This document shows positions 715 to 16,175 of a stretch of 33,934 nucleotides of DNA, piece by piece. Origin of the DNA: an uncultured Eubacteriales bacterium (GTDB taxonomy: Bacteria; Bacillota; Clostridia; Oscillospirales; Oscillospiraceae); contig ONNS01000001.1 of the NCBI GenBank assembly GCA_900319275.1, positions 83,448 through 117,381 on the forward strand, written 5' to 3'. A model generated the notes under the pieces. The model saw nothing but the letters and a program-made list of their open reading frames with translations. It did not search any database and was not told the origin of the DNA. Each line of letters opens with the position of its first letter. Position 1 is the first letter of the stretch. The translations under genes and the position numbers were made by a program.

Positions 715-715
715 C

Positions 716-1393: not shown

Positions 1394-1405
1394 TTTCTCG
1401 CCTCC

Positions 1406-1421: not shown

Positions 1422-1429
1422 ATGTTGTT

Positions 1430-1458
1430 AGTTTATCTCAAAAAGCCAGCAATTTCAA
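1430..1458 (-). promoter_or_regulatory. Putative promoter of the two-component operon
   Basis: On the minus strand a TTGAAA -35 box (1458-1453) is followed after 17 bp by TAAACT (1435-1430). Transcription would begin in or near the palindrome at 1406-1421. The -10 box matches consensus at four of six bases, so this is a moderate call. Confidence 0.42.
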
Positions 1459-1479
1459 TATCATGAAAGGAGGGACCAT

Positions 1480-1788: not shown

Positions 1789-1826
1789 GGGCGCAATTAT
1801 ACACCGGTTGGCTTGCCAACCGGTGT
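1786..1826 (+). other. oriT: Candidate origin of transfer (oriT), MOBQ type
   Basis: The sequence TAAGGGCGCAATTATAC (1786-1802) is followed by a perfect 11-bp inverted repeat, ACACCGGTTGG (1801-1811), loop CTTG, CCAACCGGTGT (1816-1826). MOBQ relaxases nick at a TAAG-N-GCGC-type core beside an inverted repeat, as in RSF1010. From memory, the Agrobacterium/Rhizobium plasmid oriT carries nearly the same AAGGGCGCAATTATAC core followed by a hairpin. The site lies just upstream of a MobA/MobL (MOBQ-class) relaxase, the expected context. The nick position is not determined here. Confidence 0.72.
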
Positions 1827-1837
1827 TTGCGCTCTCC

Positions 1838-1884
1838 GAGGGCTCTTGCAGAGGGCTCGATGGAGAAAAAGTGTTTTCTCCATC
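1838..1884. repeat. Direct repeat and second inverted repeat downstream of oriT
   Basis: Two direct copies of GAGGGCTC (1838-1845 and 1851-1858, period 13 bp) are followed by a perfect 11-bp inverted repeat, GATGGAGAAAA (1859-1869) and TTTTCTCCATC (1874-1884), with loop AGTG. Lying between the oriT core and the relaxase gene, they may be binding sites for relaxosome proteins. The hairpin lacks a T-tract and is not a convincing terminator. Confidence 0.55.
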
Positions 1885-1935
1885 CCAGGGGACGCTGCAC
1901 TTCCCCTGCGCCGCTGCGCGGCTACCCTATTGCGC

Positions 1936-1983
1936 GCATGATCGAAAGGAACGGCTGCGACCATCCGTTTCTTTCGATCATGC
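1936..1983. repeat. Third inverted repeat (19-bp arms) before the relaxase gene
   Basis: The arm at 1936-1954 pairs with 1965-1983 over 19 bp with a single G-T wobble, around a 10-bp loop. It lies about 65 bp upstream of the relaxase start. It could be a relaxosome site, a single-strand origin-like hairpin, or a structure controlling relaxase expression. Confidence 0.6.
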
Positions 1984-2048
1984 CTTTATACGCAGTATTG
2001 TTTTTGCGGTGCTGCTTTTTTTATGTCATGGCAAAGGAGGTGAACTAC

Positions 2049-3635
2049 ATGCCATGTCCACATTTCAAAATCACGATCACCCAGCGCAGCCGAGGCCAGT
2101 CCGCTGTGGCGGGCGCTGCGTACCAGAGCGGAGAAAAACTGTTTTCAGAATATGATCTCAAATGGAAATCTTATGTCGAGAAGCAGGGCATTGTTTACAC
2201 GGAGATCATGCTTCCCGCTCATGCTCCACCGGAGTATTCCGATCGGAATACGTTATGGAACGCTGCCGAGAAAATCGAAAAACAGTGGAACTCACAGCTT
2301 GCCCGCCGCATCGTTCTGGCGCTCCCGCGTGAAGTCCCGGCTGACCAGTATCCGGCCATGCTGCAGGACTTCTGCCGGGAGCATTTTGTTTCCCATGGGA
2401 TGTGCGTGGACTTTGCTATTCACGACAAAAGCGACGGCAATCCCCACGCGCACATCATGCTGACTATGCGAGCTATGGATGAGCAAGGGAAATGGCTTCC
2501 GAAAAGCAAGAAGGTTTATGACCTTGATGAAAACGGTGAGCGCATCCGACTTCCATCCGGCAACTGGAAAAGCCACAAGGAAGATACTGTCGATTGGAAC
2601 GATCAAGGTAAAGCGGAGATCTGGAGGCACGGCTGGGAAGTTGTCACGAACGAATACTTGGAAAGGAACAACCGACCAGAGCGTGTTGATCTCCGATCCT
2701 TCGAGCGACAGGGCATTGACTTGGCTCCGACGATTCATCTTGGTCCTGCGGTAACGCAGATGGAAAAACGCGGGATCGAGACGGATATGGGAAATCTCAA
2801 TCGGGAGATCAAGCAGGTAAACCGTGCGCTGCTGGCTATCCGAAAACTGATTGCCGACCTGCAAAGCTGGATCACGAAGTTAAGGGAAAAGCGAAATCGA
2901 CTAATCGAGGAAATGCGCGAGCCGACATTGCCGGAGCTGCTGACGCAATATCTTGATTCTCGCCGCGACGAGCGCAGCGACTGGTCTGTTTCCGGTCAGC
3001 GTAAAGGTACGACGATAGATCTGAAAAAGGTCTCTCATGCCGTTGTGTATTTGCAGGAGCATGAGATTGCTACAGTGGATGATCTACAAAAACACCTGTC
3101 AGAAAAAGAAGCCGCCTCCAATGAGTTCAGCAACACGATTCGAGGGAAGGAAAAGAGAATGCGGGACGTGCAGGCGCTGCTGAAAGCATGGGATTCCGTC
3201 AGTCGGCTGGAAGCACTGCATAAGCAATACAAGGGAATCGGATGGAAAAAGAAACAGGAGAAATTCTATCTGGAACACAAGGCTGAGCTGGATGAATACG
3301 GTAAGGCAGATTGGCTGCTGCGGAAGTTCTATCCCAGCAAAAAGATCCCCGTGAACACGCTGCAAAAGGAGCTGGACACACTCTCGTCGGAAGTGGAGGC
3401 CCTGCGCCCGGAGCTGGATGCGGTCAAGGCGGATCTGACCGAACTGCGCTTTGTACAGAACTGCATCACACCAGAGGAAACCAACGAAGAGAAAGGAGAG
3501 GAAACGCCGACCGTAAAGCAAACCTCGAAAGAAAAAGCCTCTCTTATCAACCGGCTGCATGATAAGCAGCAGATCGTCGATGAGCAGAAGCAGAAAGGAA
3601 AATCTCACAGCCACAGCTATGAGAACGAATTATGA
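2049..3635 (+). CDS. MobA/MobL-family relaxase
   Basis: Nicks one strand at oriT and covalently leads it during conjugative mobilization. The 528-aa protein starts at ATG 2049, chosen for the AAAGGAGGTG site at 2033-2042; the frame is open further upstream but without such a site. The N-terminal domain begins MPCPHFKITITQRSRGQSA with AAYQSG, where Tyr25 is the likely nucleophile. The metal-binding motif follows as HDKSDGNPHAHIML, matching the MobA/MobL HxxxxGNPHxH pattern. Residues beyond about 260 are long, charged and coiled-coil-like, typical of the C-terminal half of Clostridial family members, with no primase or helicase motif seen. The start and motif region look intact, so the protein should be active. 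Confidence 0.93.
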   Translation: MPCPHFKITITQRSRGQSAVAGAAYQSGEKLFSEYDLKWKSYVEKQGIVYTEIMLPAHAPPEYSDRNTLWNAAEKIEKQWNSQLARRIVLALPREVPADQYPAMLQDFCREHFVSHGMCVDFAIHDKSDGNPHAHIMLTMRAMDEQGKWLPKSKKVYDLDENGERIRLPSGNWKSHKEDTVDWNDQGKAEIWRHGWEVVTNEYLERNNRPERVDLRSFERQGIDLAPTIHLGPAVTQMEKRGIETDMGNLNREIKQVNRALLAIRKLIADLQSWITKLREKRNRLIEEMREPTLPELLTQYLDSRRDERSDWSVSGQRKGTTIDLKKVSHAVVYLQEHEIATVDDLQKHLSEKEAASNEFSNTIRGKEKRMRDVQALLKAWDSVSRLEALHKQYKGIGWKKKQEKFYLEHKAELDEYGKADWLLRKFYPSKKIPVNTLQKELDTLSSEVEALRPELDAVKADLTELRFVQNCITPEETNEEKGEETPTVKQTSKEKASLINRLHDKQQIVDEQKQKGKSHSHSYENEL

Positions 3636-3704
3636 AAGGTGAATTTAAATGTTGAAACAAAGAAAAAGAAAGTATCGAGATGAAAGAGAAAAGAAGGGAG
3701 AACC

Positions 3705-3881
3705 ATGTCCAGAAAAAAGAAACTGATCAACAACAGCGATCTTCCCGATCACGAGATCGAAGCCATTGCCCAATGTATCTACCCGGATATTCTGGAACTG
3801 TTTGAGAGTGAGGAAGGTCAAAAAGAGTTTGCCGAATGGAAGGCAAGAAAGGCTCAGGAGGAAAAGAAAAATGAGCAGTAA
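3705..3881 (+). CDS. Small hypothetical protein (58 aa) of the element
   Basis: The ATG at 3705 follows AAGGGAG (3694-3700) at good spacing. The product is a 58-aa, very charged protein beginning MSRKKKLINNSDLPDHEIEAI and ending KAQEEKKNEQ. Its stop overlaps the start of the next gene (ATG 3871 precedes TAA 3879-3881), indicating translational coupling. The middle part (EIEAIAQCIYPDILELFESEEGQKEFAEW) looks like a small helical fold. I recall similar short proteins between relaxase and regulator genes in Clostridial elements, but I cannot name the family. A smaller AUG at 3649 (25 codons) was not accepted. Confidence 0.6.
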   Translation: MSRKKKLINNSDLPDHEIEAIAQCIYPDILELFESEEGQKEFAEWKARKAQEEKKNEQ

Positions 3882-4317
3882 AAGATTTCAAAGAAAGTGC
3901 TTGCAAGTTCCCAATAGTTATGTTAATCTGGCATTGATGAAAATGCTGGCGATTAGGAGATGCAAGCAGATGAAGATTCTCGGAGAACGCATGAAGCAGT
4001 TGCGGGAAGAAAACGGCTTTTCGCAAAACAAGCTGGCCAAGCTGGTCGGACTCCCGCAGTCGAGTATCAATCGATATGAGAGCGGGTTTTCCAATCCCGC
4101 ACCGGAAACGCTGGTTTGGTATGCGGACTATTTTGACGTGTCTCTGGATTTTCTCTTTGGCAGAACGGACAAGCCTCAGGGAAAGCGCTATCAATATAAG
4201 CCGAAGCTTGATCCGGAGATGGCAAAATTCGTAGAGATGTGTTTTGAGCCGGGAACGCGGGCCAATAAAGAGTTGAAAGCGTCCATCCTGAAAATGGTTT
4301 CGGAGGAGAAGAAATGA
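3871..4317 (+). CDS. Cro/C1-type (XRE) helix-turn-helix regulator
   Basis: Probable repressor or regulator of the element. From ATG 3871 the protein is 148 aa. The HTH_3 domain spans about residues 34-92: KILGERMKQLREENGFSQNKLAKLVGLPQSSINRYESG, then PETLVWYADYFDVSLDFLFGR, the classic end of this domain. AGGAGG at 3856-3861 supports 3871. An internal ATG at 3970 with its own AGGAG gives a 115-aa protein that starts exactly at the HTH, as most family members do, so the 33-residue N-terminal part may be untranslated. The stop overlaps the ATG of the next gene by ATGA. Pairing with a BRO-like gene suggests a repressor/antirepressor switch; that is inference. Confidence 0.88.
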   Translation: MSSKRFQRKCLQVPNSYVNLALMKMLAIRRCKQMKILGERMKQLREENGFSQNKLAKLVGLPQSSINRYESGFSNPAPETLVWYADYFDVSLDFLFGRTDKPQGKRYQYKPKLDPEMAKFVEMCFEPGTRANKELKASILKMVSEEKK

Positions 4318-5183
4318 GCAACGACAAATTGCAGCTTTTCGAGGATCAGCCGATCCGCACGGCTTGGGATGAGGAGAACGAAGAGTGGTATTTCTCCATT
4401 GTTGATGTGATCCGCGTGCTGACCGATCAGCCGGACACACGTCATGCCGCAAAATATTGGAGCGTCATGAAAACGCGCTTGAAAAAAGAGGGCAATCAGT
4501 TGACTACAGTTTGTAGTCAACTGAAGCTCTTGGCCGCAGACGGCAAACGATACAATACGGATGTAGCTGAAACGGCGGGTCTCCTCCGCATCATTGAGTC
4601 GATCCCATCCCCTAAAGCAGAGCCGTTCAAGATGTGGCTGGCCCAGGTCGGCAAGGAACGTATGGAGGAAACGATTGACCCGGAACTGACGATCAACAGA
4701 GCGTTGGAAACTTATTCGCGTCTTGGCTACTCGCCGGAATGGATCAATCAGCGGATGCGAACCATTCAAGCTCGCAAAGAATTGACGGACGAATGGAAAG
4801 CCCACGGCGTTGAAACCAATCGTGAATATGCAATACTGACAGACGAGGTAACTCGCGCCTGGTCCGGTATGAGCACTCGACAATATAAGAACCTCAAAGG
4901 ACTGAAAAAGCAAAACCTCCGGGACAATATGAGTACGCTGGAGCTCGCGTTGAACATGCTGGCCGAGGCTACGACCACGGAACTGACAAAGGTCGAAAAT
5001 CCCCAAGGCTTGCAGGAGAACATGAGGATTGCCAAATCTGGCGGTGAGGTTGCAGGGGATGCACGTAAAGCCATTGAAAGCAGAACCGGGCGGCCTGTAA
5101 TCACCAGTCAAAACGCCAAACAGCTCAACGCAGTTGTAACGGATCTGATTGAGGGCGTTGTGAAAGAGGAGGATGACGAATGA
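4314..5183 (+). CDS. BRO-N/antirepressor family protein (DinD-like C-terminus)
   Basis: A 289-aa protein whose first 110 residues read as a Bro-N domain: an opening strand (KLQLFEDQPIRTAWDEENEEWYFSIVDVIRVLT), then a region with YWSVMKTRLKKEG and the conserved-looking AETAGLLRIIESIPSPKAEPFKMWLA. Bro-N domains occur in phage antirepressors and baculovirus BRO proteins and bind DNA. The C-terminus (AKSGGEVAGDARKAIESRTGRPVITSQN) resembles DinD-type proteins. The start ATG 4314 overlaps the upstream TGA, and GGAGGAGAAG precedes it. It may relieve repression by the preceding HTH protein when excision or transfer is triggered. The family is fairly secure; the regulatory role is not. Confidence 0.8.
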   Translation: MSNDKLQLFEDQPIRTAWDEENEEWYFSIVDVIRVLTDQPDTRHAAKYWSVMKTRLKKEGNQLTTVCSQLKLLAADGKRYNTDVAETAGLLRIIESIPSPKAEPFKMWLAQVGKERMEETIDPELTINRALETYSRLGYSPEWINQRMRTIQARKELTDEWKAHGVETNREYAILTDEVTRAWSGMSTRQYKNLKGLKKQNLRDNMSTLELALNMLAEATTTELTKVENPQGLQENMRIAKSGGEVAGDARKAIESRTGRPVITSQNAKQLNAVVTDLIEGVVKEEDDE

Positions 5184-6913
5184 AAGCTGTCATCTATGCC
5201 CGCTATTCCTCCGACAACCAGCGGGAAGAGAGCATAGAGGGACAGATCCGCGAGTGTACCGCCTTTGCCGAGAAGAACGGCATCACAATTCTCAGACACT
5301 ACATAGATCGAGCCTTTTCAGCAAAGACCGACAACCGGCCTGAGTTTCAAAATATGATCAAGGACAGCGGCAAGAAACTGTTCGATATGGTGATCGTTTG
5401 GAAACTCGACCGCTTTGCCCGAAATCGCTACGACAGTGCCAGGTACAAATCCTTGCTGAAAAAGAATGGCGTCAAGGTGGTGTCGGCCACAGAGGTCATT
5501 TCCGAAGGCGCGGAAGGCATCATTCTGGAATCTGTCCTGGAGGGCTATGCGGAATACTACTCGGCGGATCTGGCTGAAAAGGTCGTCCGGGGCATGACCG
5601 ATAACGCGCTCAAATGCAAGTTCAACGGCGGAACAATTCCTATCGGCTATGTAATTGACGACGAACAGCATTTTCAACCCGATCCGATCACAGCGCCCTA
5701 CGTACTTGAGGTATTCAAGCGCTATGACAAAGGAGCAACAATGACGGAGCTCCGCGACTGGCTCAATGAGCAAGGTGTAAAGAACACTCGCGGCAATCCG
5801 ATCACCTATAACACCATCCAGCACATGCTCTGTAACCGCCGTTACATCGGAGAGTTTGCGTTCCGGGAAACAGTGATTCCTAACGGCATTCCACGCATCG
5901 TGCCGAATGACCTCTTTGAACGAGTCCAGAAGAAACTGGAGGTCAATAAAAAGGCCCCGGCCCGACATAAAGCCGAGGACGACTATCTGCTGACCACCAA
6001 GATCTTTTGTGGCTACTGCGGCGCGTATCTCTGTGGTGAAAGTGGAACCGGGCGCAATGGTGTCTACCACTATTACAAGTGCGTTTCCGTGAAAAAGAAA
6101 CGTACTGAGTGCGAGTGCAAGCCTGTCCGCAAAGCCTGGATTGAAAATCTTGTCCTTGATTCCATCATGGAGATGCTGGCTGATGACCGCACCATAGATG
6201 CAATCACTTCGATGGTGTTAGCCATGCAGGATCAAGAGAGTGTGGCCCTGCCGATGTATGAGCAGCAGCTGCAAGAGGCCAACACGGGAATCAACAACTT
6301 GCTCAACGCGATCCAGCAGGGTATTCTGACAAAATCCACGAAAAACAGACTCGAAGAATTGGAAGCGGCCCGTGACGAGTTGGAGAACAAGATCGCGCTG
6401 GAGAAACTGGCGAAGCCTCGCATCAGCGAAGAGTTTGTTCGTTTCTTTTTGGAGCGATTCCGCAATCTCGACCTCTCGAAACTGGAGCATCGGAAAATGC
6501 TGATCGAGGTTTTCCTTAACGCCGTATATGTGTTCAACGATAAGATCGTAATCTCATGCAATTACAAGGACGGAACTAAAACTGTAAATTTTAGTGAAAT
6601 GGAGAGCGCGCTTACCCTGCGCACCTCCGCTTCCGGTTCGGATATGGATTGCCCCGGTGCACCAGAAAAGGCACCCCGTAAGGGGTGCCTTTTCTGGTGC
6701 CGTAGATGGGACGAGAACCCACACGTCAGCTGTCAGTCTGCCCGGACCGACCGCATCGCGAGGAAGGTCGGAATGTGCATCTCGTGCAGGCGGCCTGTGC
6801 CGTTCGTGTCCTCGTACAGCCCCAGCAGCCGAAAGCCTGCTTCCAGCTGCCCGCCGATCTGCTCTTCAAGCGAGTGCGAAAACTGCATTCCCGCGTCGGC
6901 GGCCTCCAGCTGA
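5180..6913 (+). CDS. Large serine recombinase (integrase), frame running past element end
   Basis: Catalyses integration and excision. The resolvase domain is at 1-145: YARYSSDNQREESIEGQ with catalytic Ser10 (Ser11 adjacent), the motif seen in TnpX-type recombinases, and KLDRFARNRYDS. The recombinase domain spans about 150-250, ending NTIQHMLCNRRYIG. A zinc-ribbon region has Cys277, Cys280, Cys301 and Cys311/313, followed by a coiled coil at about 360-412. Family-like sequence ends near residue 490. Residues from about 494 on are encoded by the hairpin at 6659-6700 and then by the antisense of the methyltransferase gene, so this 85-residue tail is probably junk created at the element-host junction. 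The start overlaps the upstream stop (ATGA) and follows AGAGGAGG. Confidence 0.93.
   Translation: MKAVIYARYSSDNQREESIEGQIRECTAFAEKNGITILRHYIDRAFSAKTDNRPEFQNMIKDSGKKLFDMVIVWKLDRFARNRYDSARYKSLLKKNGVKVVSATEVISEGAEGIILESVLEGYAEYYSADLAEKVVRGMTDNALKCKFNGGTIPIGYVIDDEQHFQPDPITAPYVLEVFKRYDKGATMTELRDWLNEQGVKNTRGNPITYNTIQHMLCNRRYIGEFAFRETVIPNGIPRIVPNDLFERVQKKLEVNKKAPARHKAEDDYLLTTKIFCGYCGAYLCGESGTGRNGVYHYYKCVSVKKKRTECECKPVRKAWIENLVLDSIMEMLADDRTIDAITSMVLAMQDQESVALPMYEQQLQEANTGINNLLNAIQQGILTKSTKNRLEELEAARDELENKIALEKLAKPRISEEFVRFFLERFRNLDLSKLEHRKMLIEVFLNAVYVFNDKIVISCNYKDGTKTVNFSEMESALTLRTSASGSDMDCPGAPEKAPRKGCLFWCRRWDENPHVSCQSARTDRIARKVGMCISCRRPVPFVSSYSPSSRKPASSCPPICSSSECENCIPASAASS
6659..6700. terminator. 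Bidirectional intrinsic terminator at the element end
   Basis: A perfect 19-bp stem (6659-6677 with 6682-6700) closes a GTAA loop. Its inner part is AAAAGGCACCCC / GGGGTGCCTTTT, a GC-rich stem flanked by A and T runs, so it can end transcription from both sides: the recombinase operon from the left and the methyltransferase gene from the right. It lies inside the open recombinase frame, further evidence that the frame beyond it is not the natural C-terminus. Confidence 0.85.
6692..6726 (-). other. tRNA 3'-end-like remnant at the element-host junction
   Basis: Read on the minus strand this stretch resembles the 3' end of a tRNA: a T-stem GTGGG / CCCAT around a 7-nt loop TTCTCGT, then CTACGGC and ACCA. 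The loop departs from the usual TTCRANY, and no matching 5' acceptor strand (GCCGTAG) or anticodon arm is seen in the adjoining sequence, so it is not a tRNA gene. It may be an old attachment-site remnant or a coincidental repeat. Confidence 0.35.
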
Positions 6914-7485
6914 CGGCGCTGCGCTTCGTTTTTCAGCGGGTCGAACGGCAATGAGTTGACGATCTCGCGTTCGTCCTCGTCCACAATATAGTTGATGTTC
7001 AGATCCACGCCGGAGAGCAAAAGTCCGCCGGGTTTCAGGACGCGCCGACATTCCCGCCAGATGCTCTTCACGTCTTTGACATAGCAGTTCGCGACCGGAT
7101 GAAAAATCAGATCAAAGCTCCCGTCGGCAAAGGGCAGGGGCTTTGTCATGTCACCGCGGACGATTTCGATGCGGTAGCCCTCGCGTTCGGCGACCATGCG
7201 CTCGCTTGCCAGCTGCCGCTCGGAATAGTCGAAAACCGTGCAAACAGCACCGAGCGCGGAGAAGATCGGCATTTGCTGCCCGCCACCGCTGGCCAGACCG
7301 AGAATTTTCTTTCCCTTCAGCGGGCCAAACCAGGCATGGGGTACCGGCTTCGTGGGGGTGAGCAGTACGTCCCAGTCTCCCCGCAGCGCGCGCACATAGC
7401 TTTCATGGTCGATCGGCCGGCCCCATTCCCAGCCTTCCTCGACCCAGCGGTCGATGGTCGCGGCGTTGATATCCTGATAATCCAT
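6733..7485 (-). CDS. Class I SAM-dependent methyltransferase
   Basis: A 250-aa, single-domain soluble enzyme. The SAM-binding loop is KILGLASGGGQQ (about residues 60-71), followed by the acidic strand end VFDYSERQL and a motif IV-like segment GSFDLIFHPVANCYV, then ECRRVLKPGGLLLSG, typical of UbiE/COQ5-type folds. The N-terminal part with INAATIDRWVEEGWEWGRPI matches a group of Firmicutes methyltransferases of unknown substrate. The ATG at 7485 follows GAGGAT. The gene appears complete and ends 33 bp from the element hairpin, so the element inserted just past its stop codon. The substrate is unknown. Confidence 0.9.
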   Translation of the reverse strand: MDYQDINAATIDRWVEEGWEWGRPIDHESYVRALRGDWDVLLTPTKPVPHAWFGPLKGKKILGLASGGGQQMPIFSALGAVCTVFDYSERQLASERMVAEREGYRIEIVRGDMTKPLPFADGSFDLIFHPVANCYVKDVKSIWRECRRVLKPGGLLLSGVDLNINYIVDEDEREIVNSLPFDPLKNEAQRRQLEAADAGMQFSHSLEEQIGGQLEAGFRLLGLYEDTNGTGRLHEMHIPTFLAMRSVRAD

Positions 7486-7534
7486 ACGAAAAATCCTCGT
7501 TCAGAAGAAACATCTTATTTCTGTTGCTTTATAT

Positions 7535-7562
7535 CTTATACCGTCAGGCAAGAACAAGTCAA
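7535..7562 (-). promoter_or_regulatory. Putative promoter of the methyltransferase gene
   Basis: On the minus strand TTGACT (7562-7557) is separated by 16 bp from TATAAG (7540-7535). Both boxes match sigma-70-type consensus at five of six bases. The 5'UTR would be about 40 nt. Confidence 0.6.
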
Positions 7563-7584
7563 GCGCCCGCACCGGAAGGGCCTC

Positions 7585-7613
7585 TTTACTTTGCCGCGCC
7601 GTTTTGCTATAAT
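7585..7613 (+). promoter_or_regulatory. Putative promoter of the threonine-aldolase-like gene
   Basis: TTTACT (7585-7590), a 17-bp spacer and a perfect TATAAT (7608-7613), with the gene starting 31 bp further on. Together with 7535-7562 it makes a back-to-back divergent promoter pair. Confidence 0.7.
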
Positions 7614-7644
7614 CCGAGTTATACGGAAAACAGGGGGCATACGC

Positions 7645-8679
7645 ATGATTCGCTTCAACAACGACTACAACCGCGGCGCGCATCCGGCCATTTTAGAGGC
7701 GCTCGCGGAGACGAATACGACCAGCTACGGCGGCTACGGACAGGATGAGTGGTGCGAGGGCGCCGCCGCGGCCATCCGTAGCGAGCTTGGCGGCGCCGAC
7801 ACCGAGATCCACTTCCTTGTCGGCGGCACGCAGGTCAATTACACCGTGATCGCGGCGGCGCTGCGCCCCTATGAGAGCGTCGTCTGCGCCGACACGGCCC
7901 ATATCCAGGTGCACGAGACCGGCGCCGTTGAAAACAGCGGCCACAAGATCGAGACCGTGCCGAACGTCGACGGCAAGCTGACGGCTGAGGCGGTCCGCGG
8001 CATTGCCGAGGCCTACCGCGTGAGCACGATCCCCGAGCACATCACCGAGCCGAAGTTCGTCTTCCTCTCCATGCCCAGCGAGTACGGGACGATCTACCGC
8101 CTCGACGAGCTGTGCGCGCTGCGCACGGTCTGCGATGAGTACGGGCTCTATCTCTATGTCGATGGGGCGCGCATGGCCTATGGGCTGGGCGCGGCGGACA
8201 GCGACGTGACGCTCGCCGACCTCGCCGCGCTGTGCGACGCTTTCACGATCGGCGGGACGAAATGCGGCGCGCTCTTCGGCGAGGCGCTGGTGCTGAAAAA
8301 CCCGGCGCTGCGGCGGCATTTTCGCAGCTTTATGAAACAAAACGGCGCCCTGCTCGCGAAGGGCTGGCTGCTCGGCCTGCAATTTGCGACGCTCTTTGAG
8401 AACGGCCGCTATTTCGAGCTCGGCCGTCGGGCCGACGCGCTCGCGATGCGCCTCAAGGCCGCGTGCGAGGCGAAGGGCCTGCCGCTCTATATGCCGAACA
8501 GCACCAACCAGCAGTTTGTCGTGCTGACCGACGCGCAGAAGGCGGCGCTCGCGAGAGATTTCATCTTTGAAGAAGAGGGCCAGGTGCCCGACGGCCGCTC
8601 GATCGTCCGCTTCTGCACGAGCTGGGCCAATACCGATGAGGAAGTCGACGCCCTCTGCCGCGCGATCGCGGCGCTTTGA
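7645..8679 (+). CDS. Low-specificity threonine aldolase / beta-eliminating-lyase-family PLP enzyme
   Basis: PLP enzyme likely to cleave L-threonine or allo-threonine to glycine and acetaldehyde. From ATG 7645 (AGGGGG just upstream) it is 344 aa, the usual size. Visible fold type I landmarks: the phosphate-binding region LVGGTQVNYTVI (58-70), a stacking His90 in AHIQVHETGA, the pyridine-N Asp173 with Arg176 in YVDGARMAYG, and Schiff-base Lys206 in TIGGTKCGALFG. The upstream open frame (from 7099) is antisense to the methyltransferase and lacks a ribosome site, so it was not used. Related aromatic-amino-acid lyases share this fold, so the exact substrate is less certain than the family. Confidence 0.88.
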   Translation: MIRFNNDYNRGAHPAILEALAETNTTSYGGYGQDEWCEGAAAAIRSELGGADTEIHFLVGGTQVNYTVIAAALRPYESVVCADTAHIQVHETGAVENSGHKIETVPNVDGKLTAEAVRGIAEAYRVSTIPEHITEPKFVFLSMPSEYGTIYRLDELCALRTVCDEYGLYLYVDGARMAYGLGAADSDVTLADLAALCDAFTIGGTKCGALFGEALVLKNPALRRHFRSFMKQNGALLAKGWLLGLQFATLFENGRYFELGRRADALAMRLKAACEAKGLPLYMPNSTNQQFVVLTDAQKAALARDFIFEEEGQVPDGRSIVRFCTSWANTDEEVDALCRAIAAL

Positions 8680-8723
8680 GGGAATCAAAAGAATAGAGAA
8701 AAAGCAGGTTTTTGTATTGTTCT

Positions 8724-8876
8724 GTAGGGGTCGGCGCCCTCGACGACCCGGCGGAATACCGATACAACAATCAAAATGGGTTGGGCGAATTCGTGACAAC
8801 AGTTGTTCCGAATTCGCCCAGCCCATTTATTATGTGTATCGCCTTTATGCCGGGCGGCCGCGAGGGCCGCCCCTAC
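8724..8876. repeat. 153-bp palindromic repeat, MITE-like
   Basis: The ends are inverted copies, GTAGGGG (8724-8730) and CCCCTAC (8870-8876). The similarity continues inwards (CGGCGCCCTCG..., CGATACA, AAATGGG) with small gaps. The core is a 20-bp stem (8774-8793 with 8809-8828, one T-G wobble) with a 15-bp loop. It fills most of the 227-bp gap between the convergent threonine-aldolase and helicase genes and may also terminate both. No transposase frame is present, so it would be non-autonomous. GTAGGGGCGG-type palindromes are, from memory, common in Oscillospirales genomes. Confidence 0.7.
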
Positions 8877-8906
8877 GGGCAGATACCCGCATTTTGCGTT
8901 CTGTCG

Positions 8907-11249
8907 TTATAATGGAAACAGTTCGGCGGCACGGGCGATCTCCCGGATGCGCTTCTTCATGCCTTCGACGTCCAGCACGCCGCAGGCAAAGCCCTTGCGC
9001 ACGAGCTCCTCGGGCAGATACTCGTCGTACTTGTCGAAGACCGGGAGCTCCTTCGGGAACAGCAGCTCGAGCGGGGAGAAGTCGACCTCGGCCTCCTCCT
9101 TCAGGATCTGAAAGAATTCCTCGGGGCTGACGCCGATCGTAAACTGCATGAAGTAGGGCCGTGCCGAGTTGAAGCCGCGCAGACCGAGGCGCGCGGCGCA
9201 GCGGATGCGCAGAAAGCGCTCGAGCGCCAGAAAGGCGTAGCTGCCCAGCCAGGGGAACAGACAGTACATCTGCCCGCCGAGCGGTACAAGTGGGCAGTCG
9301 GCGAGCCCTGAGCGCGCGGCGCTGTCGCGAAACTGCCGCAGCCGCGCGGCGGCGTTGGGGCGCAAATAGCCGTAGCTGCGGCTGCCTTTCAGGATCTCGC
9401 GCATTTTTTCCAGAATACGCGTGTGGATGTCCCCGGCCACGTCGCCGAAATAGGCAGGGATGCTGCCCTTGACCGGGTAGCAGTAGACCTCGTGGCGCTG
9501 CACGTCCACGTCCTCGACGACCCAGACGTGACCTGCGATCGCGATCTTGTCGCCGATCGGGGGCGGCTTGACGATCGTGCCGAGCTCCTGCGAGTCGCAG
9601 CGGACCGAATATTCCTCGTTCTCCTGGAACACGGCGAAGAACTTGAAGTTGTTGACGACGCGCTCGCCCGCGAGCCCCACAATCAGCCCGCCGTTCTCGG
9701 TGCGCTGCAGCTGGTCGGTCTCGATCAGATGGGTCAGCAGCAGCTTATAGTCGTCCTGCGTGATGTTCCGAAACGGCGCGAGCGTCAGCACGCGCGAGGC
9801 GAGCTCCGCCGCCGTCATCTCGCCGAGCGAGGCGAGCGTGCTCATGGTCTGGTGGTATAAAAGACTGTAGGGCAGCCGCCCCTCGCGCGGCGGCTCGACC
9901 CAGTGGTCCTCGATGTACAGCTGCACCAGCGCAATGGCCTGCAGCAGCTTCCAGGGGACGGTCTCGGGCAGCACGGCGCGCGCCTCGGCGTGCTCCTCGC
10001 GCAGCACGAACCACATCTCTTCGGGATCGCCTCGGCGGCCCGTGCGGCCCATGCGCTGCAGAAAGGCCGAGACCGTAAACGGCGCGTCGATCTGGAAGGC
10101 GCGCTCGAGCTTGCCGATGTCGATGCCGAGCTCGAGCGTGGCCGTGGTGCAGGTCGTCAGCGCGCTGTCCTCGTCCTTCATGGCGTACTCGGCGCTCTCG
10201 CGGTAGGCCGAGGAGAGATTGCCGTGATGGATCAGAAAGCGGTCGCTCTCGTGCCGGGCCTCGCAGTAGCCGCGCAGCGTCGAGGTCACCTCCTCGCACT
10301 CCTCGCGCGAGTTCGAGAACACCAGACATTTGCGTCCGCGCGTGTGCTCATAGATATAGGCGTAACCGGGGTCGGCCATGATCGGGGCCGCGTCGCTCGC
10401 CGTCTCGTCGGTGGGCGCAAGGGCGGCGACCGCCTCCGCCTTGCGGCCGGGAACCGGAAGGTCCGCGGCAGGGGCGGCGGGCAGCACCTGCGCCGCCGCG
10501 GCAGGGGCAGGCGGCGATTCTTCCTCGGGCATGTCGGCGGCCTGGGGCGGCGTCTTGTAAAAGTGCTCCATCGAGAGGCGCCACTTCATGCCCGGCGCTT
10601 CAAAGCGCGGAATCACGGTGCGGCGGCCCGTCCCGGCGGCGAGCAGCGCGCCCACGGCCGCCGGATCGCCGATCGTGGCCGAAAGACCGATGCGCCGCGG
10701 CTCGACGCCGGCCATGCGCGACAGCCGCTCGATCAGACAGAAGGTCTGCATCCCGCGGTCGCCGCGCAGAAAGGAATGGATCTCGTCGATCACGATAAAG
10801 CGCAGGTCGCCGAACAGCCGGGGGATCTCCCCGTGGCGGCGCAGCAGCATGGCCTCCAGCGATTCGGGCGTGATCTGCAGAATACCCGAGGGATTTTTCA
10901 TCAGCTTGCGCTTGTGCGACTCGGCCACGTCGCCGTGCCAGTGCCAGAGCGGCAGCTCGGCCTCCTCCAGCAGGTCGGTCAGACGCAGAAACTGGTCGTT
11001 GATCAGGGCCTTCAGCGGCGCGATGTACAGGCAGCCGACCGTGGCCGAGGGCTTCTCGCTCAGCAGTGTGATGATCGGGAAAAAGGCCGCCTCGGTCTTT
11101 CCCGCCGCGGTCGAGGCGCACAGCAGCACGTGGTCCTCGCTGTTGAAAATCGCCTCGCCCGCCGCCACCTGGATGCCGCGCAGCGTCTGCCAGCTGCTGC
11201 GGTAGATATAGTCCTGCACAAACGGGGCATAGCGTGAAAAAACGTCCAT
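8907..11249 (-). CDS. Lhr-like / BrxH-type superfamily II DNA helicase
   Basis: ATP-dependent DNA helicase, 780 aa. Motifs in order: Walker A ASTAAGKTEA (Lys51), motif Ia IAPLKALINDQ, motif II DEIH (155-158), motif III SATIG (190-194), motif V region TATLELGIDIG, and motif VI QRMGRTGRRG (398-407). An Ala/Pro-rich low-complexity linker (about 236-290) separates the RecA-like lobes. The C-terminal 350 residues are of the Lhr/BrxH kind (GDKIAIAGHVWVVEDVD). The ATG at 11249 has GGAGGGG and is 15 bp from the stop of the ATPase gene. The association with a BrxD-like ATPase points to a BrxHI-type helicase of a defence-related complex rather than the repair helicase Lhr. Confidence 0.9.
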   Translation of the reverse strand: MDVFSRYAPFVQDYIYRSSWQTLRGIQVAAGEAIFNSEDHVLLCASTAAGKTEAAFFPIITLLSEKPSATVGCLYIAPLKALINDQFLRLTDLLEEAELPLWHWHGDVAESHKRKLMKNPSGILQITPESLEAMLLRRHGEIPRLFGDLRFIVIDEIHSFLRGDRGMQTFCLIERLSRMAGVEPRRIGLSATIGDPAAVGALLAAGTGRRTVIPRFEAPGMKWRLSMEHFYKTPPQAADMPEEESPPAPAAAAQVLPAAPAADLPVPGRKAEAVAALAPTDETASDAAPIMADPGYAYIYEHTRGRKCLVFSNSREECEEVTSTLRGYCEARHESDRFLIHHGNLSSAYRESAEYAMKDEDSALTTCTTATLELGIDIGKLERAFQIDAPFTVSAFLQRMGRTGRRGDPEEMWFVLREEHAEARAVLPETVPWKLLQAIALVQLYIEDHWVEPPREGRLPYSLLYHQTMSTLASLGEMTAAELASRVLTLAPFRNITQDDYKLLLTHLIETDQLQRTENGGLIVGLAGERVVNNFKFFAVFQENEEYSVRCDSQELGTIVKPPPIGDKIAIAGHVWVVEDVDVQRHEVYCYPVKGSIPAYFGDVAGDIHTRILEKMREILKGSRSYGYLRPNAAARLRQFRDSAARSGLADCPLVPLGGQMYCLFPWLGSYAFLALERFLRIRCAARLGLRGFNSARPYFMQFTIGVSPEEFFQILKEEAEVDFSPLELLFPKELPVFDKYDEYLPEELVRKGFACGVLDVEGMKKRIREIARAAELFPL

Positions 11250-11264
11250 AAGCTTTCCCCTCCG

Positions 11265-12593
11265 CTATACGGTGAATTCCGCCAGCTCGTCGGTCGTCTC
11301 GTCGCTGACGGCTTCGGATCTGGCATAGGAGAATTCCTCGCTGTGGAGCAGCGCCTCGGCGCTCAGATCGGGGTGCTGATAGAGGATGTCCAGCAGCTCG
11401 ATGAAATCGCGGATGATCTCGCGCGGTGTGATGCGCGTGTCGGCGCCGACGCGCCCGTATTCGATGCGAATGAAGACCTCCAGCTCGTCCTCGCTGATCG
11501 TGCGCGTGTAGTCGTAGAGCCCGGCGTGCATATCGGCCAGCTTTTCGGTCAGCACCAGCATCTCCTCGGCGGTCAGCGCCTCCAGCCGGATGACCGGGGA
11601 GAGCAGGTCGCGCGCGCCCTCGCGGCTGAACTTGCCCTCGGCGAGCCGCGAGGACAGCGCCTCATAGCTGTAGACGCCGCGGCGTCTGTCCTCGATGCAC
11701 TGCGGCGTGCCGCTGAGGATAAAGCCGATGCCGCGCGCCTTGCCCTGCAGCGCGTCGTTGTAGATCGTCAGGATCTTTTCATAGTTGCTGTTGCGCGTGA
11801 TGCTGTTCGGGATCTTATAGATGTTCACCAGCTCGTCGATCAGCACCAGCAGTCCCTGATAGCCCGCCTGCCGGAAGAACACCGCGAAGAGCTTGAGATA
11901 ATCGTACCAGTCGTCGTCGGTGATGATCGCGTTGACGCCAAGCTCACGCTTCGCCTCACTGCGTGTCGGGTATTCGCCGCGAAACCAGCGCAGAACACGC
12001 GCCTTGGTGTCCTCGTCGCCGTGGATGCTGCTCTCGTAGTAGAGCGAGAGCAGGCGGGCAAAGTCGAAGCCGTGCACCAGCTCGTTCATACCGGAAATGA
12101 CCGTGTAGATCTCCCGGCTGACGAGCCGTGCGAAAGCCTCGCTGTCAGTCGCAAGACCCGATTCGGCTGCAGCCTTCGCCTGCACCGAGCTGATCCAGCG
12201 GTCGAGCAGCAGCATCAACGCGCCGCCCTCGGGCCGGGTCTTGGTTGAAAGGTTGCCGATCAGCTCGCGGTAAGTCGCGAGGCCCTGCCCGCGCGTGCCG
12301 GTCATGCGCCGCTCGGGCGAGAGGTCGGCGTCGGCCACGACAAAGCCGCGGTCCATCGCGTAATTGCGGATCGTCTGCAGCAGGAAGCTTTTGCCGCTGC
12401 CGTACTTGCCCATGATGAAGCGGAAGGACGCGCCGCCCTCGGCGATGATGTCGATGTCGTGCAGCAGCGCGCTGATCTCGTTTTTGCGGCCCACCGTCAC
12501 ATAGGGCAGACCGATGCGCGGCACGACGCCGCCCTTGAGAGAATTCAAAACCGCCTGCGCAATGCGCCGCGGGACTTTGGTTTTCGGTTCCAT
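11265..12593 (-). CDS. BrxD-like (DUF2791) P-loop ATPase
   Basis: A 442-aa AAA/STAND-like ATPase of the DUF2791 family, which contains BrxD of type 2 BREX (Pgl) systems. Opening RIAQAVLNSLKGGVVPRIGLPYVTVGR is followed by Walker A GKYGSGKS (62-69, Lys68), Walker B LLVLIDE (Asp253-Glu254) and a sensor-like FILSGTPQ. The C-terminal part is helical with an acidic tail. The start at 12593 follows AGGAGA. Gaps of 18 bp upstream and 15 bp downstream make it the middle gene of a tight operon with the TerB-like protein and the helicase. It probably loads or powers the helicase on DNA. The family is confident; a defence role is inferred from relatives. Confidence 0.87.
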   Translation of the reverse strand: MEPKTKVPRRIAQAVLNSLKGGVVPRIGLPYVTVGRKNEISALLHDIDIIAEGGASFRFIMGKYGSGKSFLLQTIRNYAMDRGFVVADADLSPERRMTGTRGQGLATYRELIGNLSTKTRPEGGALMLLLDRWISSVQAKAAAESGLATDSEAFARLVSREIYTVISGMNELVHGFDFARLLSLYYESSIHGDEDTKARVLRWFRGEYPTRSEAKRELGVNAIITDDDWYDYLKLFAVFFRQAGYQGLLVLIDELVNIYKIPNSITRNSNYEKILTIYNDALQGKARGIGFILSGTPQCIEDRRRGVYSYEALSSRLAEGKFSREGARDLLSPVIRLEALTAEEMLVLTEKLADMHAGLYDYTRTISEDELEVFIRIEYGRVGADTRITPREIIRDFIELLDILYQHPDLSAEALLHSEEFSYARSEAVSDETTDELAEFTV

Positions 12594-12611
12594 AGTTGTC
12601 TCCTGTAGCTT

Positions 12612-14153
12612 TTATCCGAAGATACTAAGCAAGTCTTCCCGGTAATCTTCCACGACGGCATAGCCGTCGCCGCCGTCGGATTCGAGCACTGTGTCGCCGA
12701 TCAGCTCGAACAGCTTTTCGTTGATGCTGTCAGCCAGCAGCGAGGGGAAAAGCCGCCGTTCGCTCGTAAAGGATTGCCAGGGCTCTCCCTCCAGCAGCAA
12801 CAGCAGAAACTGTCGTTCGTCCTCCGTCAGTCCGGCGGGCGGTGCGGCTCTGTGCTCTGTTTCATGCGCCGGTTCGGACGGCAACACAGCGGCCTCTGCC
12901 GGCGCGCGCACGGTCTCCGTCTCGATCGGAGAGAGCGCGGCGTTCTCCGGTTCGTCCTCTTCGATCAGCAGGCGCTCCATCGTCAGCGCGGCGTCCGAGC
13001 GGATGCCCGAGAGCAGGCTGCGGTCGACGGATACGGCCGGGCGGCTGGCCTGTTTTCGTTCCTGATAATAATCCTCCACCGCGCGCTGCACGGTCTTCAG
13101 CGTGCGCTTTTTCAGGCCGTTGGGCTTGAGCGGGCGGGCAAAGCCGAAGACCTCGCGCGCGATCCGCTCGCCCTCGTGCAGCAGCTCGCCCATCGCGGCG
13201 GATTTGCCGGGCTGCTTGCCGCTGACGCCCAGACACTCGCAGCGCCAGCGGCCAAAGCGGCAGATATAACGCCGCACGTCGTCGATCTCCACCGTGGCGT
13301 CGGGGTGCTTTTGCGTTTCGATGAATACGGCGTTTCGGAACATCTGATAGGGGATTTCCCCGGCGACGCCGCAGAAGAGCTCCTGAAAGCTCGTTGTTCC
13401 GCGCTCGGCCTCGCTCGTGCAGACGGCCCGGTACACGCGCGAGAGCGCCTCGCGGCAGACTTCGCCCTGCGCCTTGTAGAAGGGCGAGCGGGTCACGTCG
13501 TAGCTCGAAACGGCGCTGAGCGCGTCGAAAACCTCATCAGAGCCGTACTTGTCGGGGTATTTCAGCGCCGCGCGCAGCCGATCGGTGCGCCGCACCTCGT
13601 CAAAGGCGCGCGCAACATAGCGCTCATCCAGCGCGTAGTACACCGCGAAGTCCCGCAGCCAGATATCGAGATAGTCTGTCAGCACGCGCTCACGGTAGTG
13701 CTGCCGCAGCGCCTCGAGCGCCTCAAAGCCCTCCGCGGGAGAGTTTACGCCGATGCAGCCGAGCAGCTCGTAAGCGTAGAGAAATTTGAACGAGAGCGGC
13801 GCGTCGGTGTACGCCCCGCGGCGCAGCCGGGTGCGCCAGCCGAAGTAGCCCTCCAGCACCTTTGTCGGCAGGGCGCGATAGGTTGTGTAATAGGATTGAA
13901 AGTTGCCGGTATAGATTTCGTCGCTCTCGCGATCGGCATAGCGCAGCGCGTCCTCGCGGAAGATCCGCGCGCGCTGGGTCAGCGAGTGCTGCAGATCAAA
14001 GTCCAGCTGTCCGAAGGCCGGCCGCGGCCGCTCGGCGGCGGGGGAACGCTCGGGCAGCGGCGTCGGGCGCGGTGGGATGGCCTGCGCGGTGTAGACGACT
14101 TCCTTGTCAATATGTTTGATGATATCTATGTCAATTGTCTCCATGTCCGCCAT
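12612..14153 (-). CDS. TerB-N / TerB-C domain protein
   Basis: A 513-aa soluble protein. Residues about 60-280 resemble the TerB-N domain (SYYTTYRALPTKVLEGYFGWRTRLRRG, then FLYAYELLGCIGV, typical of TerB-N). The C-terminal 130 residues (LTEDERQFLLLLLEGEPWQSF...FPSLLADSINEKLFELIGDTVLE) resemble TerB-C. Between them lies a Cys-containing segment and an acidic, Pro/Ala-rich linker. TerB-N/TerB-C proteins are known partners of DUF2791 ATPases and Lhr-like helicases in gene neighbourhoods predicted to act in DNA defence. The start chosen is ATG 14153, where AAGGGG has good spacing; the frame also has a GTG at 14162 inside that site. It heads the operon. Confidence 0.82.
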   Translation of the reverse strand: MADMETIDIDIIKHIDKEVVYTAQAIPPRPTPLPERSPAAERPRPAFGQLDFDLQHSLTQRARIFREDALRYADRESDEIYTGNFQSYYTTYRALPTKVLEGYFGWRTRLRRGAYTDAPLSFKFLYAYELLGCIGVNSPAEGFEALEALRQHYRERVLTDYLDIWLRDFAVYYALDERYVARAFDEVRRTDRLRAALKYPDKYGSDEVFDALSAVSSYDVTRSPFYKAQGEVCREALSRVYRAVCTSEAERGTTSFQELFCGVAGEIPYQMFRNAVFIETQKHPDATVEIDDVRRYICRFGRWRCECLGVSGKQPGKSAAMGELLHEGERIAREVFGFARPLKPNGLKKRTLKTVQRAVEDYYQERKQASRPAVSVDRSLLSGIRSDAALTMERLLIEEDEPENAALSPIETETVRAPAEAAVLPSEPAHETEHRAAPPAGLTEDERQFLLLLLEGEPWQSFTSERRLFPSLLADSINEKLFELIGDTVLESDGGDGYAVVEDYREDLLSIFG

Positions 14154-14204
14154 GGCCGTCACCCCTTTCCATGCGCACAGCAGAATAATTCTTTAACACA
14201 TCAT

Positions 14205-14232
14205 ATTATACCGGGAAAATCGGGAATATCAA
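14205..14232 (-). promoter_or_regulatory. Promoter of the TerB-BrxD-helicase operon
   Basis: On the minus strand TTGATA (14232-14227), a 16-bp spacer and a perfect TATAAT (14210-14205) lie about 50 bp upstream of the first start codon. This is the only clear promoter for the three genes. Confidence 0.68.
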
Positions 14233-14270
14233 GTGTGCAATTTTATGTGGAAAAAACCGCAGACAGGATG

Positions 14271-14276
14271 TATAAT
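14271..14276 (+). promoter_or_regulatory. Possible -10 box for the mnmA operon
   Basis: A perfect TATAAT lies 42 bp before the short leader ORF and 92 bp before mnmA. No good -35 box is seen at 16-18 bp, so the call rests on the -10 box and the divergent arrangement with the TerB operon promoter. Confidence 0.4.
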
Positions 14277-14317
14277 ATATCAATTAAGAAGCTGCACGCA
14301 AGGAAGAGAGCGTAACC

Positions 14318-14371
14318 ATGACAGAAAAAAAGATAATTTTATGTATTTGCCGCGGAAGGAGTCTGCCATGA
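14318..14371 (+). CDS. Possible 17-aa leader peptide upstream of mnmA
   Basis: The ATG at 14318 is preceded by AGGAAGAGAG and opens a 17-codon frame reading MTEKKIILCICRGRSLP. It stops with TGA at 14369-14371, overlapping the mnmA ATG (14368). The ATGA overlap and ribosome site suggest translation coupled to mnmA. The Cys-Ile-Cys codons are notable because MnmA uses sulfur delivered from cysteine. It could also be a chance frame. Confidence 0.38.
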   Translation: MTEKKIILCICRGRSLP

Positions 14372-15414
14372 AGGCTCTGATCGCCATGAGCGGCGGGGTC
14401 GATTCCTCGGTGGCGGCCTCGCTGATGCTGCGGCAGGGCATTGGCGCGCACGGCGTCACGATGTGCCTGCAGGAGAGCGCACGCAGCGAGCGCGACATCG
14501 CCGACGCGGCCGCCGTCTGCCGCGCGCTGGGGATCGAGCACACCGTGCTCGACTGCCGCGCGGCCTTCGCGCGCGAGGTCGAGGACGCCTTTGTCGCGGC
14601 CTATGAGAACGGCCGAACCCCGAACCCCTGCATCATCTGCAATAAAAAACTGAAATTCGGCCGCCTGATGGAGGCCGCGGACGAGCGCGGGCTCGATCTG
14701 GTCGTCACGGGGCACTATGCGCGTGTCGCCTATGACAAGCCGAGCGGGCGCTGGCTGCTGAAAAAAGGCCTGGACGAGCCGAAGGATCAGAGCTATTTCC
14801 TCTATCTGCTCAGCCAGGAGCAGCTTGCGCGCGTGCGCTTTCCCTTGGGGGACTACACAAAGGACGAGGCCCGCGCGCTGGCCGACGAGCTGCGCTTCCT
14901 CAACGCGCGCAAGCACGATTCGCAGGATATCTGCTTTGTGCCCGACGGCGATTATGCCGCCTTTGTTGAGCGCTACAGCGGCAAACACTTTCCCGAGGGG
15001 GATTTTGTCGACCCCGAGGGCCATATCGTCGGCAGACATAAGGGTATCATCCGCTATACGGTCGGCCAGCGCAAGGGCCTGGGTCTCGCGAGCACGGCGC
15101 CCTGGTACGTCGCCGGGGTGGACGCGGATCGCAACGAGGTGCGCCTGACGCACGGCGAGGGACTCTGGAAGCGGACCGTTTACGCCGAGGCTCTCAACTG
15201 GATCGCAGTGCCCGGCATCGACGGGGAACTGCGCTGCTGCGCCAAGCTCCGCTCGCGCCACCGCGAGCAGCCCTGCACGGCGGTCATCGAGAACGGCCGC
15301 CTGCGCGTCGATTTCGACGAGCCGCAGCGCGCGCCGACGCTCGGCCAGGCCCTGGTGCTCTATGACGGCGATACGGTGCTCGGCGGCGGCACGATCTGCG
15401 AGGTGCAGCCATGA
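14368..15414 (+). CDS. mnmA: tRNA-specific 2-thiouridylase MnmA
   Basis: Forms 2-thiouridine at wobble position 34 of Lys, Glu and Gln tRNAs, using ATP and persulfide sulfur. The 348-aa protein has the PP-loop SGGVDSS (8-14), the catalytic Cys88 in TPNPCIICNKKLKF and the second redox Cys189 in HDSQDICFVP. These are followed by IRYTVGQRKGLG and the C-terminal beta-barrel. Length is close to the family norm of about 360. ATG 14368 is selected by GGAAGGAG seven bases upstream; the longer open frame starting at 14233 has no such site. The stop overlaps tcdA by ATGA. Confidence 0.96.
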   Translation: MKALIAMSGGVDSSVAASLMLRQGIGAHGVTMCLQESARSERDIADAAAVCRALGIEHTVLDCRAAFAREVEDAFVAAYENGRTPNPCIICNKKLKFGRLMEAADERGLDLVVTGHYARVAYDKPSGRWLLKKGLDEPKDQSYFLYLLSQEQLARVRFPLGDYTKDEARALADELRFLNARKHDSQDICFVPDGDYAAFVERYSGKHFPEGDFVDPEGHIVGRHKGIIRYTVGQRKGLGLASTAPWYVAGVDADRNEVRLTHGEGLWKRTVYAEALNWIAVPGIDGELRCCAKLRSRHREQPCTAVIENGRLRVDFDEPQRAPTLGQALVLYDGDTVLGGGTICEVQP

Positions 15415-16175
15415 ACGAGTACTTTTCCCGCACCGAGCTGCTGCTCGGCAGCGCTGCTGTGGACGCGCTGCGCCGCGCGCGCGTCGCCGTGTTCGGCGTC
15501 GGCGGCGTCGGCGGCTATGTCGTCGAGGCACTGGCCCGCGCCGGCGTCGGCGCGCTGGATCTGATCGACAGCGACACCGTCGCCCCGTCGAATCTCAACC
15601 GGCAGATCATCGCCCTGCACAGCACGATCGGTATGTATAAGGTCGACGCGGCCGCGGCGCGCGTGCGTGATATCAACCCCGCCTGCGCTGTGACGCCGTA
15701 CCGCTGCTTTTTCCTGCCCGAGACCGAAGGACAGTTTGATTTTACACGCTACGACTATGTGGTCGACGCGATCGACACGGTCACCGGCAAGCTCGCCCTG
15801 ATCGAAAAGGCGCGCGCAGCCGGAACGCCGATCATCTGCGCGATGGGGGCGGGGAACAAGCTGCACCCCGAGCGCTTTGAGATCGCCGATATTTACGAAA
15901 CCAGCGTCTGTCCGCTCGCGCGCGTCATGCGCAAGGAGTGCAAAAAACGCGGCATCGAGCATCTGAAGGTCGTCTACTCGAAGGAGCCGCCCCTCATGCC
16001 CGATCCCGCGCTTGAGACCGCGGCCCGCGCCGAGACCCCCGATCGGCGGGATATCCCCGGTTCGGTCTCGTTCACGCCTTCGGCGGCCGGACTGATCCTG
16101 GCCGGCGAGGTCGTGCGCGACCTGCTGCGCGCGGGCACTGCCGGGAAAACAGCAAAGGAACAGGAGACACTATGA
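15411..16175 (+). CDS. tcdA: tRNA threonylcarbamoyladenosine dehydratase TcdA (ThiF/E1-like)
   Basis: Cyclises t6A37 to ct6A37 in ANN-decoding tRNAs after ATP activation. The 254-aa protein opens MNEYFSRTELLLGSAAVDAL, has the nucleotide-binding GVGGVGGYVVEALARAG (29-45), Asp53/Asp55 and the NLNRQI motif. It then has VVDAIDTVTGKLALI, SVCPLARVMRKECKKRGI and C-terminal PGSVSFTPSAAGLILAGEVVRDLL. This pattern is specific to the TcdA/CsdL group rather than MoeB or ThiF, which carry zinc Cys pairs absent here. It is coupled to mnmA upstream and to the TtcA-like gene downstream by ATGA overlaps. Confidence 0.93.
   Translation: MNEYFSRTELLLGSAAVDALRRARVAVFGVGGVGGYVVEALARAGVGALDLIDSDTVAPSNLNRQIIALHSTIGMYKVDAAAARVRDINPACAVTPYRCFFLPETEGQFDFTRYDYVVDAIDTVTGKLALIEKARAAGTPIICAMGAGNKLHPERFEIADIYETSVCPLARVMRKECKKRGIEHLKVVYSKEPPLMPDPALETAARAETPDRRDIPGSVSFTPSAAGLILAGEVVRDLLRAGTAGKTAKEQETL

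Follow-up and report, generated by a model that had tools for sequence, protein, structure and literature searches.

A three-gene operon of an uncultured Oscillospiraceae bacterium is very probably a complete Shango defence system

The three-gene operon at positions 8907-14153 of a 33,934-nucleotide stretch of contig ONNS01000001.1 (the whole stretch is referred to as the window), from an uncultured Oscillospiraceae bacterium, is very probably a complete and apparently intact Shango system (sngABC), a judgement that covers both its identity and its role as a system of the kind giving modest, broad anti-phage protection. The operon shares with Shango the same make-up of a TerB protein, an ATPase and a DEAD/DEAH helicase, and each of the three products finds its best PADLOC match in the corresponding Shango family. 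The genes and the sequence element preceding them are as follows.

sngA, 12612..14153, minus strand: TerB_N/TerB_C protein of 513 amino acids (PADLOC SngA, Pfam, AlphaFold2)
sngB, 11265..12593, minus strand: BrxC/BrxD-family AAA+ ATPase of 442 amino acids (PADLOC SngB, Pfam BrxC_BrxD, structure model)
sngC, 8907..11249, minus strand: superfamily 2 (SF2) helicase of 780 amino acids (PADLOC SngC, nearest solved chains by sequence)
Sigma-70-like promoter TTGATA-N16-TATAAT, 14205..14232, minus strand: upstream of sngA, agreeing with 11 of 12 consensus positions

The three open reading frames (ORFs; 14153-12612, 12593-11265 and 11249-8907) follow one another in the order A-B-C in a single operon, contain zero internal stops on translation and are separated by spacers of 18 bp (12594-12611, sngA/sngB) and 15 bp (11250-11264, sngB/sngC). 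The sngA gene starts at the ATG at 14153, ahead of which lies a ribosome-binding-like AGGGG stretch (14166-14162); a GTG at 14162 that overlaps this stretch is the less likely start. Four promoter-like sites were found in a 6-kb stretch against a mean of 0.9 after shuffling, and all four cluster at 14193-14276, in the region that separates sngA from the divergent mnmA. A preliminary description of this DNA had proposed one promoter, the two short gaps, intact Walker motifs in the ATPase and SF2 motifs in the helicase, and a host-like base composition; the promoter and gaps are confirmed, the motif residues lie where it had placed them, and the guanine-cytosine content of the operon (0.60-0.68) is like that of the host.

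SngA matches its PADLOC model at 4.2e-66 over residues 56-511 and contains the Pfam domains TerB_N (9e-23) and TerB_C (2e-23). SngB matches its own at 3.6e-188 (624 bits, residues 5-441; BrxD 180 bits), belongs to the Pfam family BrxC_BrxD (1.3e-167), so that all three domain assignments first proposed, TerB-N, TerB-C and a BrxD-type ATPase, are recovered by Pfam, and retains an intact Walker A motif, GKYGSGKS at 62-69 (Lys68), and Walker B motif, LLVLIDE (Asp253-Glu254). SngC matches its model at 2.1e-271 (901 bits, residues 3-767), with Pfam DEAD (3e-27) and Helicase_C (4e-15) domains and an intact set of SF2 motifs comprising AAGKT (Lys51), DEIH at 155, SAT at 190, TATLELGID at 369 and QRMGRTGR at 398; by eye, a Pro/Ala-rich linker at about 235-290 joins its two helicase lobes.

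The adjacent ATPase and SF2 helicase recall the BrxD-BrxHI dyad of type 2 bacteriophage exclusion (BREX), which is built from the same families, and the operon could in principle be a remnant or satellite of such a system after loss of PglX, PglZ, PglW and BrxC. SngB does share its Pfam family with BrxC and BrxD, and after Shango the helicase scores best against the PADLOC models for BrxHI/BrxHII (BrxHI 400 bits), but SngB reaches only 182 bits against the NCBIfam model BREX_BrxD, whose cut-off is 350, and the Shango models outscore their BREX counterparts 2-3 times. The host assembly (161 contigs, 97.7% completeness) yields zero matches to PglZ (PF08665) and a single PF10923 match, so that SngB is its sole BrxC/BrxD-family protein; a TerB gene precedes SngB in 77 of 80 relatives. 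On these scores, the cut-off and the missing parts, descent from BREX was rejected as highly improbable; since the best PADLOC matches are to Sng families, the BrxD cut-off is missed and PglZ and a second BrxC/BrxD are absent, the operon is assigned to Shango and not to a piece of BREX. The stand-alone TerB/ATPase/helicase module of the preliminary description therefore survives, as does, for the operon itself, its statement that a nuclease is missing. Its list of missing BREX parts is upheld across the genome for PglZ and, as there is no second BrxC/BrxD-family protein, for BrxC; for PglX and PglW it holds for the 13 ORFs of the window that the Pfam scan covered, the search for these two not having been genome-wide.

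Shango was reportedly described by Millman in 2022 from immune islands of Escherichia coli. According to passages of a study of Pseudomonas aeruginosa, the Shango operon of strain PA14 lowered plating 10-100 fold in PAO1 for many but not all phages and also protected liquid cultures, and anti-phage activity of the E. coli system is cited there (PMC10250203). The anti-phage module suspected at the outset is thus of a kind already published as such, but it is not new, having already been named.

The three genes behave as a unit. Searching genome contigs with SngB gave 381 confirmed stretches, from which 80 loci were kept, and SngA and SngC were sought beside SngB by tblastn (E<=1e-8). SngA lies upstream in 77 of the 80 loci, SngC downstream in 77 and both in 74; neither gap exceeds 200 bp in 61 of these three-gene loci. 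The six incomplete loci each lack a match to one gene, and in five of them the contig ends within less than 1 kb on the side concerned: only 274, 888 and 443 bases precede the SngB match in L050, L076 and L078, and the contigs of L107 and L098 end 72 and 973 bases past it, these five misses being either cut or inconclusive. The 63 operons compared (that of the window plus the 62 loci, out of 80, whose genes are complete) differ most in SngA, with a median pairwise identity of 43% against 82% in SngB and 80% in SngC; pairwise identities in the three proteins covary (Spearman 0.80-0.90). Judged from these sequences, SngB and SngC would form a nearly fixed engine and the TerB protein a fast-changing partner, with all three travelling together.

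The distribution of this unit is patchy. Including the window genome itself, an SngB match occurs in 14 of 61 sampled genomes of the genus (6 of 23 of good quality, meaning completeness >=90% and contamination <=5%) and in 34 of 300 of the family (20 of 189 of good quality), spread over 23 of 106 genera. A core, vertically inherited gene set, the outcome that the preliminary description had regarded as speaking against a defence module, is rejected by these counts. The analysis settles the locus as a defence system already known and shows Shango to be an accessory module of patchy occurrence within this uncultured family. By record title the 80 relatives are for the most part Clostridia of rumen and gut (Oscillospiraceae, Lachnospiraceae, Ruminococcaceae); the others include some Bacteroidales, one Spirochaetales and lactobacilli. 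The window SngB has a median identity of 72% to 62 of these relatives on genome contigs and is <60% identical to all 690 plasmid copies (top-ranked 54%). A phage-borne copy was rejected: of 50,697 phage records, none matches SngB at E<=1e-10.

The plasmid copies bear on a further alternative, that Shango excludes plasmids or mobile DNA in general rather than mainly phages. Passages of PMC11096173 describe clearance of plasmids by a helicase-nuclease system, ApsAB, and genomic islands some of which hold both ApsAB-like systems and Shango. Strong exclusion fits poorly, however, with the SngB relatives found in 690 of 72,556 plasmid records (449 Klebsiella, 144 Salmonella), of which 542 are predicted conjugative, and the published activity of Shango, as far as PMC10250203 reports it in the passages cited above, is against phages; an anti-plasmid role is therefore unlikely. 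Three annotated plasmid stretches from among these records were inspected, and in each, including an archaeal one, the annotation gives a TerB gene, an ATPase gene and a helicase gene in this order; the window SngA detects the TerB gene by tblastn in only one of the three.

The find itself is ordinary; what stays of interest is the mechanism of Shango, which a 2026 review lists as unknown in the passage concerned (PMC12926258) and for which our literature search returned no mechanism paper among the matches listed. The contrast between the conserved SngB and SngC and the fast-changing SngA, together with the domain and cargo variants described below, offers handles on this mechanism and makes these parts worth specialist attention.

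For SngA, the AlphaFold2 model (mean predicted local distance difference test score, pLDDT, 85.9) predicts a mostly helical fold in which a beta section at 264-308 separates the two domains, and gave zero matches to PDB folds at E<=0.001. A hidden nuclease within SngA was rejected on this search and on Pfam, which gave zero nuclease matches. Alignment of 54 SngA sequences (the window and 53 of the 62 complete-gene loci) shows that invariant residues include Y92, L100, Y103, F104, W106, R107, R111, E129, G135, W165, R333, I384, R385, N478, D487, D503 and Y504. The faster evolution of SngA relative to SngB and SngC would be compatible with a role in recognition and lends indirect support to the putative sensor role that the preliminary description gave the TerB protein.

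The AAA+ ATPases of the origin recognition complex (ORC)/Cdc6 type and TnsC act as loaders or DNA-bound regulators. The SngB model resembles human ORC at rank 1 of a fold search of the PDB (7cte, 6.7e-4) and archaeal Cdc6/Orc1 at rank 8 (2qby, 1.6e-3), ORC chains are numerous among the top 50 fold matches, and TnsC appears at ranks 26 and 30. By sequence the likeness goes undetected, a phmmer search of the PDB at E<=0.1 with SngB giving a GTPase as its sole match (0.077), so that the resemblance to ORC/Cdc6 and TnsC comes from fold only and the loader role of SngB is putative. SngB was aligned using the window copy together with 41 of the 71 sequences of full length. The related BrxD is described in part of PMC12839542 as an ORC-Cdc6 ATPase that may help to load or activate BrxHI.

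The first solved chains for SngC by sequence are the DNA helicases 5v9x (3.9e-24) and 7lhl (1.7e-23), which we take to be Lhr-type helicases, and a sub-threshold match to the Lhr winged helix occurs at 448-509 (Pfam, E 0.013). Lhr is a stand-alone helicase; SngC is instead adjoined by SngA and SngB in the 74 three-gene loci. Sections of PMC12278908 group SngC, BrxHI, DruE and DpdJ as defence helicases that possibly form a single clade, and according to these sections SngC and BrxHI could not be assigned to a known helicase subfamily; BrxHI is classed as Ski2-like in part of PMC12839542.

From these resemblances we tentatively propose that SngA senses, SngB loads and SngC disrupts invading DNA. 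SngA would detect or dock on a phage-specific state of DNA or protein, SngB, as an ORC/Cdc6-like AAA+ ATPase, would assemble on DNA and load or activate SngC, and SngC, as an Lhr/Brr2-like helicase, would translocate along the invading DNA and so disrupt its replication or expression. Because the operon shows no nuclease, any breakdown of the DNA would be left to host nucleases.

The main rival to this scheme holds that SngABC acts as a guard of the cell instead of attacking DNA itself: its helicase and ATPase would sense damage caused by the phage and slow or kill the infected cell by abortive infection. Hachiman HamAB is also a helicase-based, broad anti-phage complex. Hachiman is described as sensing DNA damage in passages of PMC12278908, no nuclease was found in the Shango operon, and PA14 Shango is modest on plating and strong in the protection of cultures in the portions of PMC10250203 concerned. 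Against this, Hachiman has its own nuclease effector, HamA, and a helicase of another subgroup than SngC (PMC12278908, same passages), whereas SngA has neither a nuclease match in Pfam nor a fold match in the PDB; abortive infection is possible but somewhat doubtful as the explanation.

Several points weigh against our reading of the operon and of how its parts work. The anti-phage role of the window copy would follow from its homologues alone. In the fold search of the SngB model, ClpX and RuvBL take ranks 2 and 3 and the anti-phage ATPase RdrA rank 7, with TnsC only at rank 26; confidence in the model is no more than moderate (pLDDT 74.2), and it aligns only loosely with the PDB chains (template modelling score about 0.2-0.4). 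The rapid change of SngA could reflect weaker constraint and not recognition. The window SngA shares no more than 26-46% identity with the 53 sequences aligned to it, and for this reason its target may differ. Finally, locus L116, in the genome G035, has sngAB without an adjacent sngC despite 5 kb of room.

Relatives differ most at the N-terminus of SngA and between the genes. At least 110 residues precede the TerB_N core in 43 of 63 SngA proteins, compared with only 55 in the window SngA, which is shorter than most and is without this extension. An SngA profile matches PSPTO_3016 (2kfp, 3.8e-13) over positions 3-113 and Pfam YjbR matches 13 of 54 SngA members at E<=0.01, on which grounds at least some of these extensions are YjbR-like; the window SngA shows no such match. 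One of the 54 has a RecU match in Pfam, and appears to be the SngA of L066 (23-1393), in which a RecU-like N-terminus continues in the same frame into a shortened TerB_N. This gene stands where a contig of a metagenome-assembled genome (MAG) begins and is either a fusion or an assembly error.

More than 700 bp of additional DNA lies inside the operon in 8 of 74 loci. The cargo scan covered ten ORFs from five loci (L057, L065, L072, L098 and L102), in one of which, L098, no sngC was found; the cargo of L073, L084, L086 and L092 lay outside it. In a Bacteroidales MAG (L057, 3783-6813) an EcoRI endonuclease (PF02963, 5e-151) and two N6/N4 DNA methyltransferases lie between sngB and sngC. L065, with cargo at 8030-9977 and 12557-15577, has an MmeI-type enzyme and a Pfam-unmatched ORF between sngB and sngC and DUF3990 and Sel1 proteins between sngA and sngB. 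The cargo of L072 (8909-9994) is a PDDEXK_4 protein, a PD-(D/E)XK nuclease, that of L102 a RhuM/Fic protein, and that of L098 a KilA-N protein on the opposite strand between sngA and sngB. L084, L086 and L092 have extra ORFs between sngA and sngB that resemble one another on visual inspection. SngA might be a swappable recognition arm that sets the range of invaders, gaining and losing N-terminal domains (YjbR-like and, once, RecU-like) on a near-constant SngB/SngC engine, and the operon a chassis for inserted defence genes (EcoRI, MmeI, the PD-(D/E)XK nuclease and the DUF3990 cluster) that possibly supply the nuclease Shango lacks; we regard this combined view as speculative and rather unlikely.

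As judged from comparison with relatives, the block at 8684-14345 was most likely gained horizontally, because its flanks match G035 without the block between them and the nearest sampled SngB is found in another genus. G035 is the closest sampled genome (mnmA 92%, lyase 86%); its DNA matches the window from 14346 rightward and at 7595-8683 with nothing in between, and on its contigs other genes adjoin both flanks, the comparison being limited by an assembly of about 310 contigs with a completeness of only 81%. G035 has an SngA 32% and an SngB 72% identical to those of the window, on another contig and with no SngC adjacent; by eye, nitroreductase-like and acylphosphatase-like genes stand in place of sngC in L116/L186 (G035:C218). 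The closest sampled SngB (84%) is from a different genus, and the same-genus copies reach 67-73%.

The proposal that the operon occupies a hot-spot beside an integrated element is not supported: methyltransferase and lyase genes separate the recombinase from the operon, the nearest genes vary among relatives, and PADLOC matches close to the operon are not clearly commoner than 4.5-8 kb away. Pfam families of 135 near ORFs of relatives (of 171) are mostly metabolic or housekeeping, as judged from 25 of 140 families. The same near ORFs gave 16 PADLOC families at E<=1e-15, each in <=3 ORFs, compared with 37 families in 135 far ORFs, where 20 of the 25 families listed are GajB models with one member each and probably represent one ORF. 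Enrichment as a defence island is not apparent, in that the two sets show no clear difference; their counts are small and their families overlap on single ORFs. A PADLOC 'mad2' match near the operon proved false, the protein being PrmA.

The neighbouring mobile element is of lower guanine-cytosine content, occupies 1-6913 of the window and contains the following genes.

1827-3635: MobA/MobL relaxase
3766-4317: helix-turn-helix protein
4314-5183: BRO-N protein, PADLOC candidate PDC-S13 (437 bits)
5180-6913: large serine recombinase

A direct repeat at its right end was not found, the segment 6851-7150 sharing no same-strand word of >=14 bases with window positions 1-5000 or with the 13.4 kb left of the window. 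The relaxase is matched by PADLOC DpdH (8.7e-14) and LmuB (3e-6), matches that are probably misleading and do not denote a defence gene. In the lyase ORF (7099-8679, 526 amino acids) the matches of relatives start at residues 152-192 in nearly all rows; the ORF is likely annotated too long, and the alignments place the gene start probably near 7600-7630. Two mnmA-like genes that share 51% identity occur in the genome, one in the window at 14317-15414 and the other at G000:C101:6499-7560.

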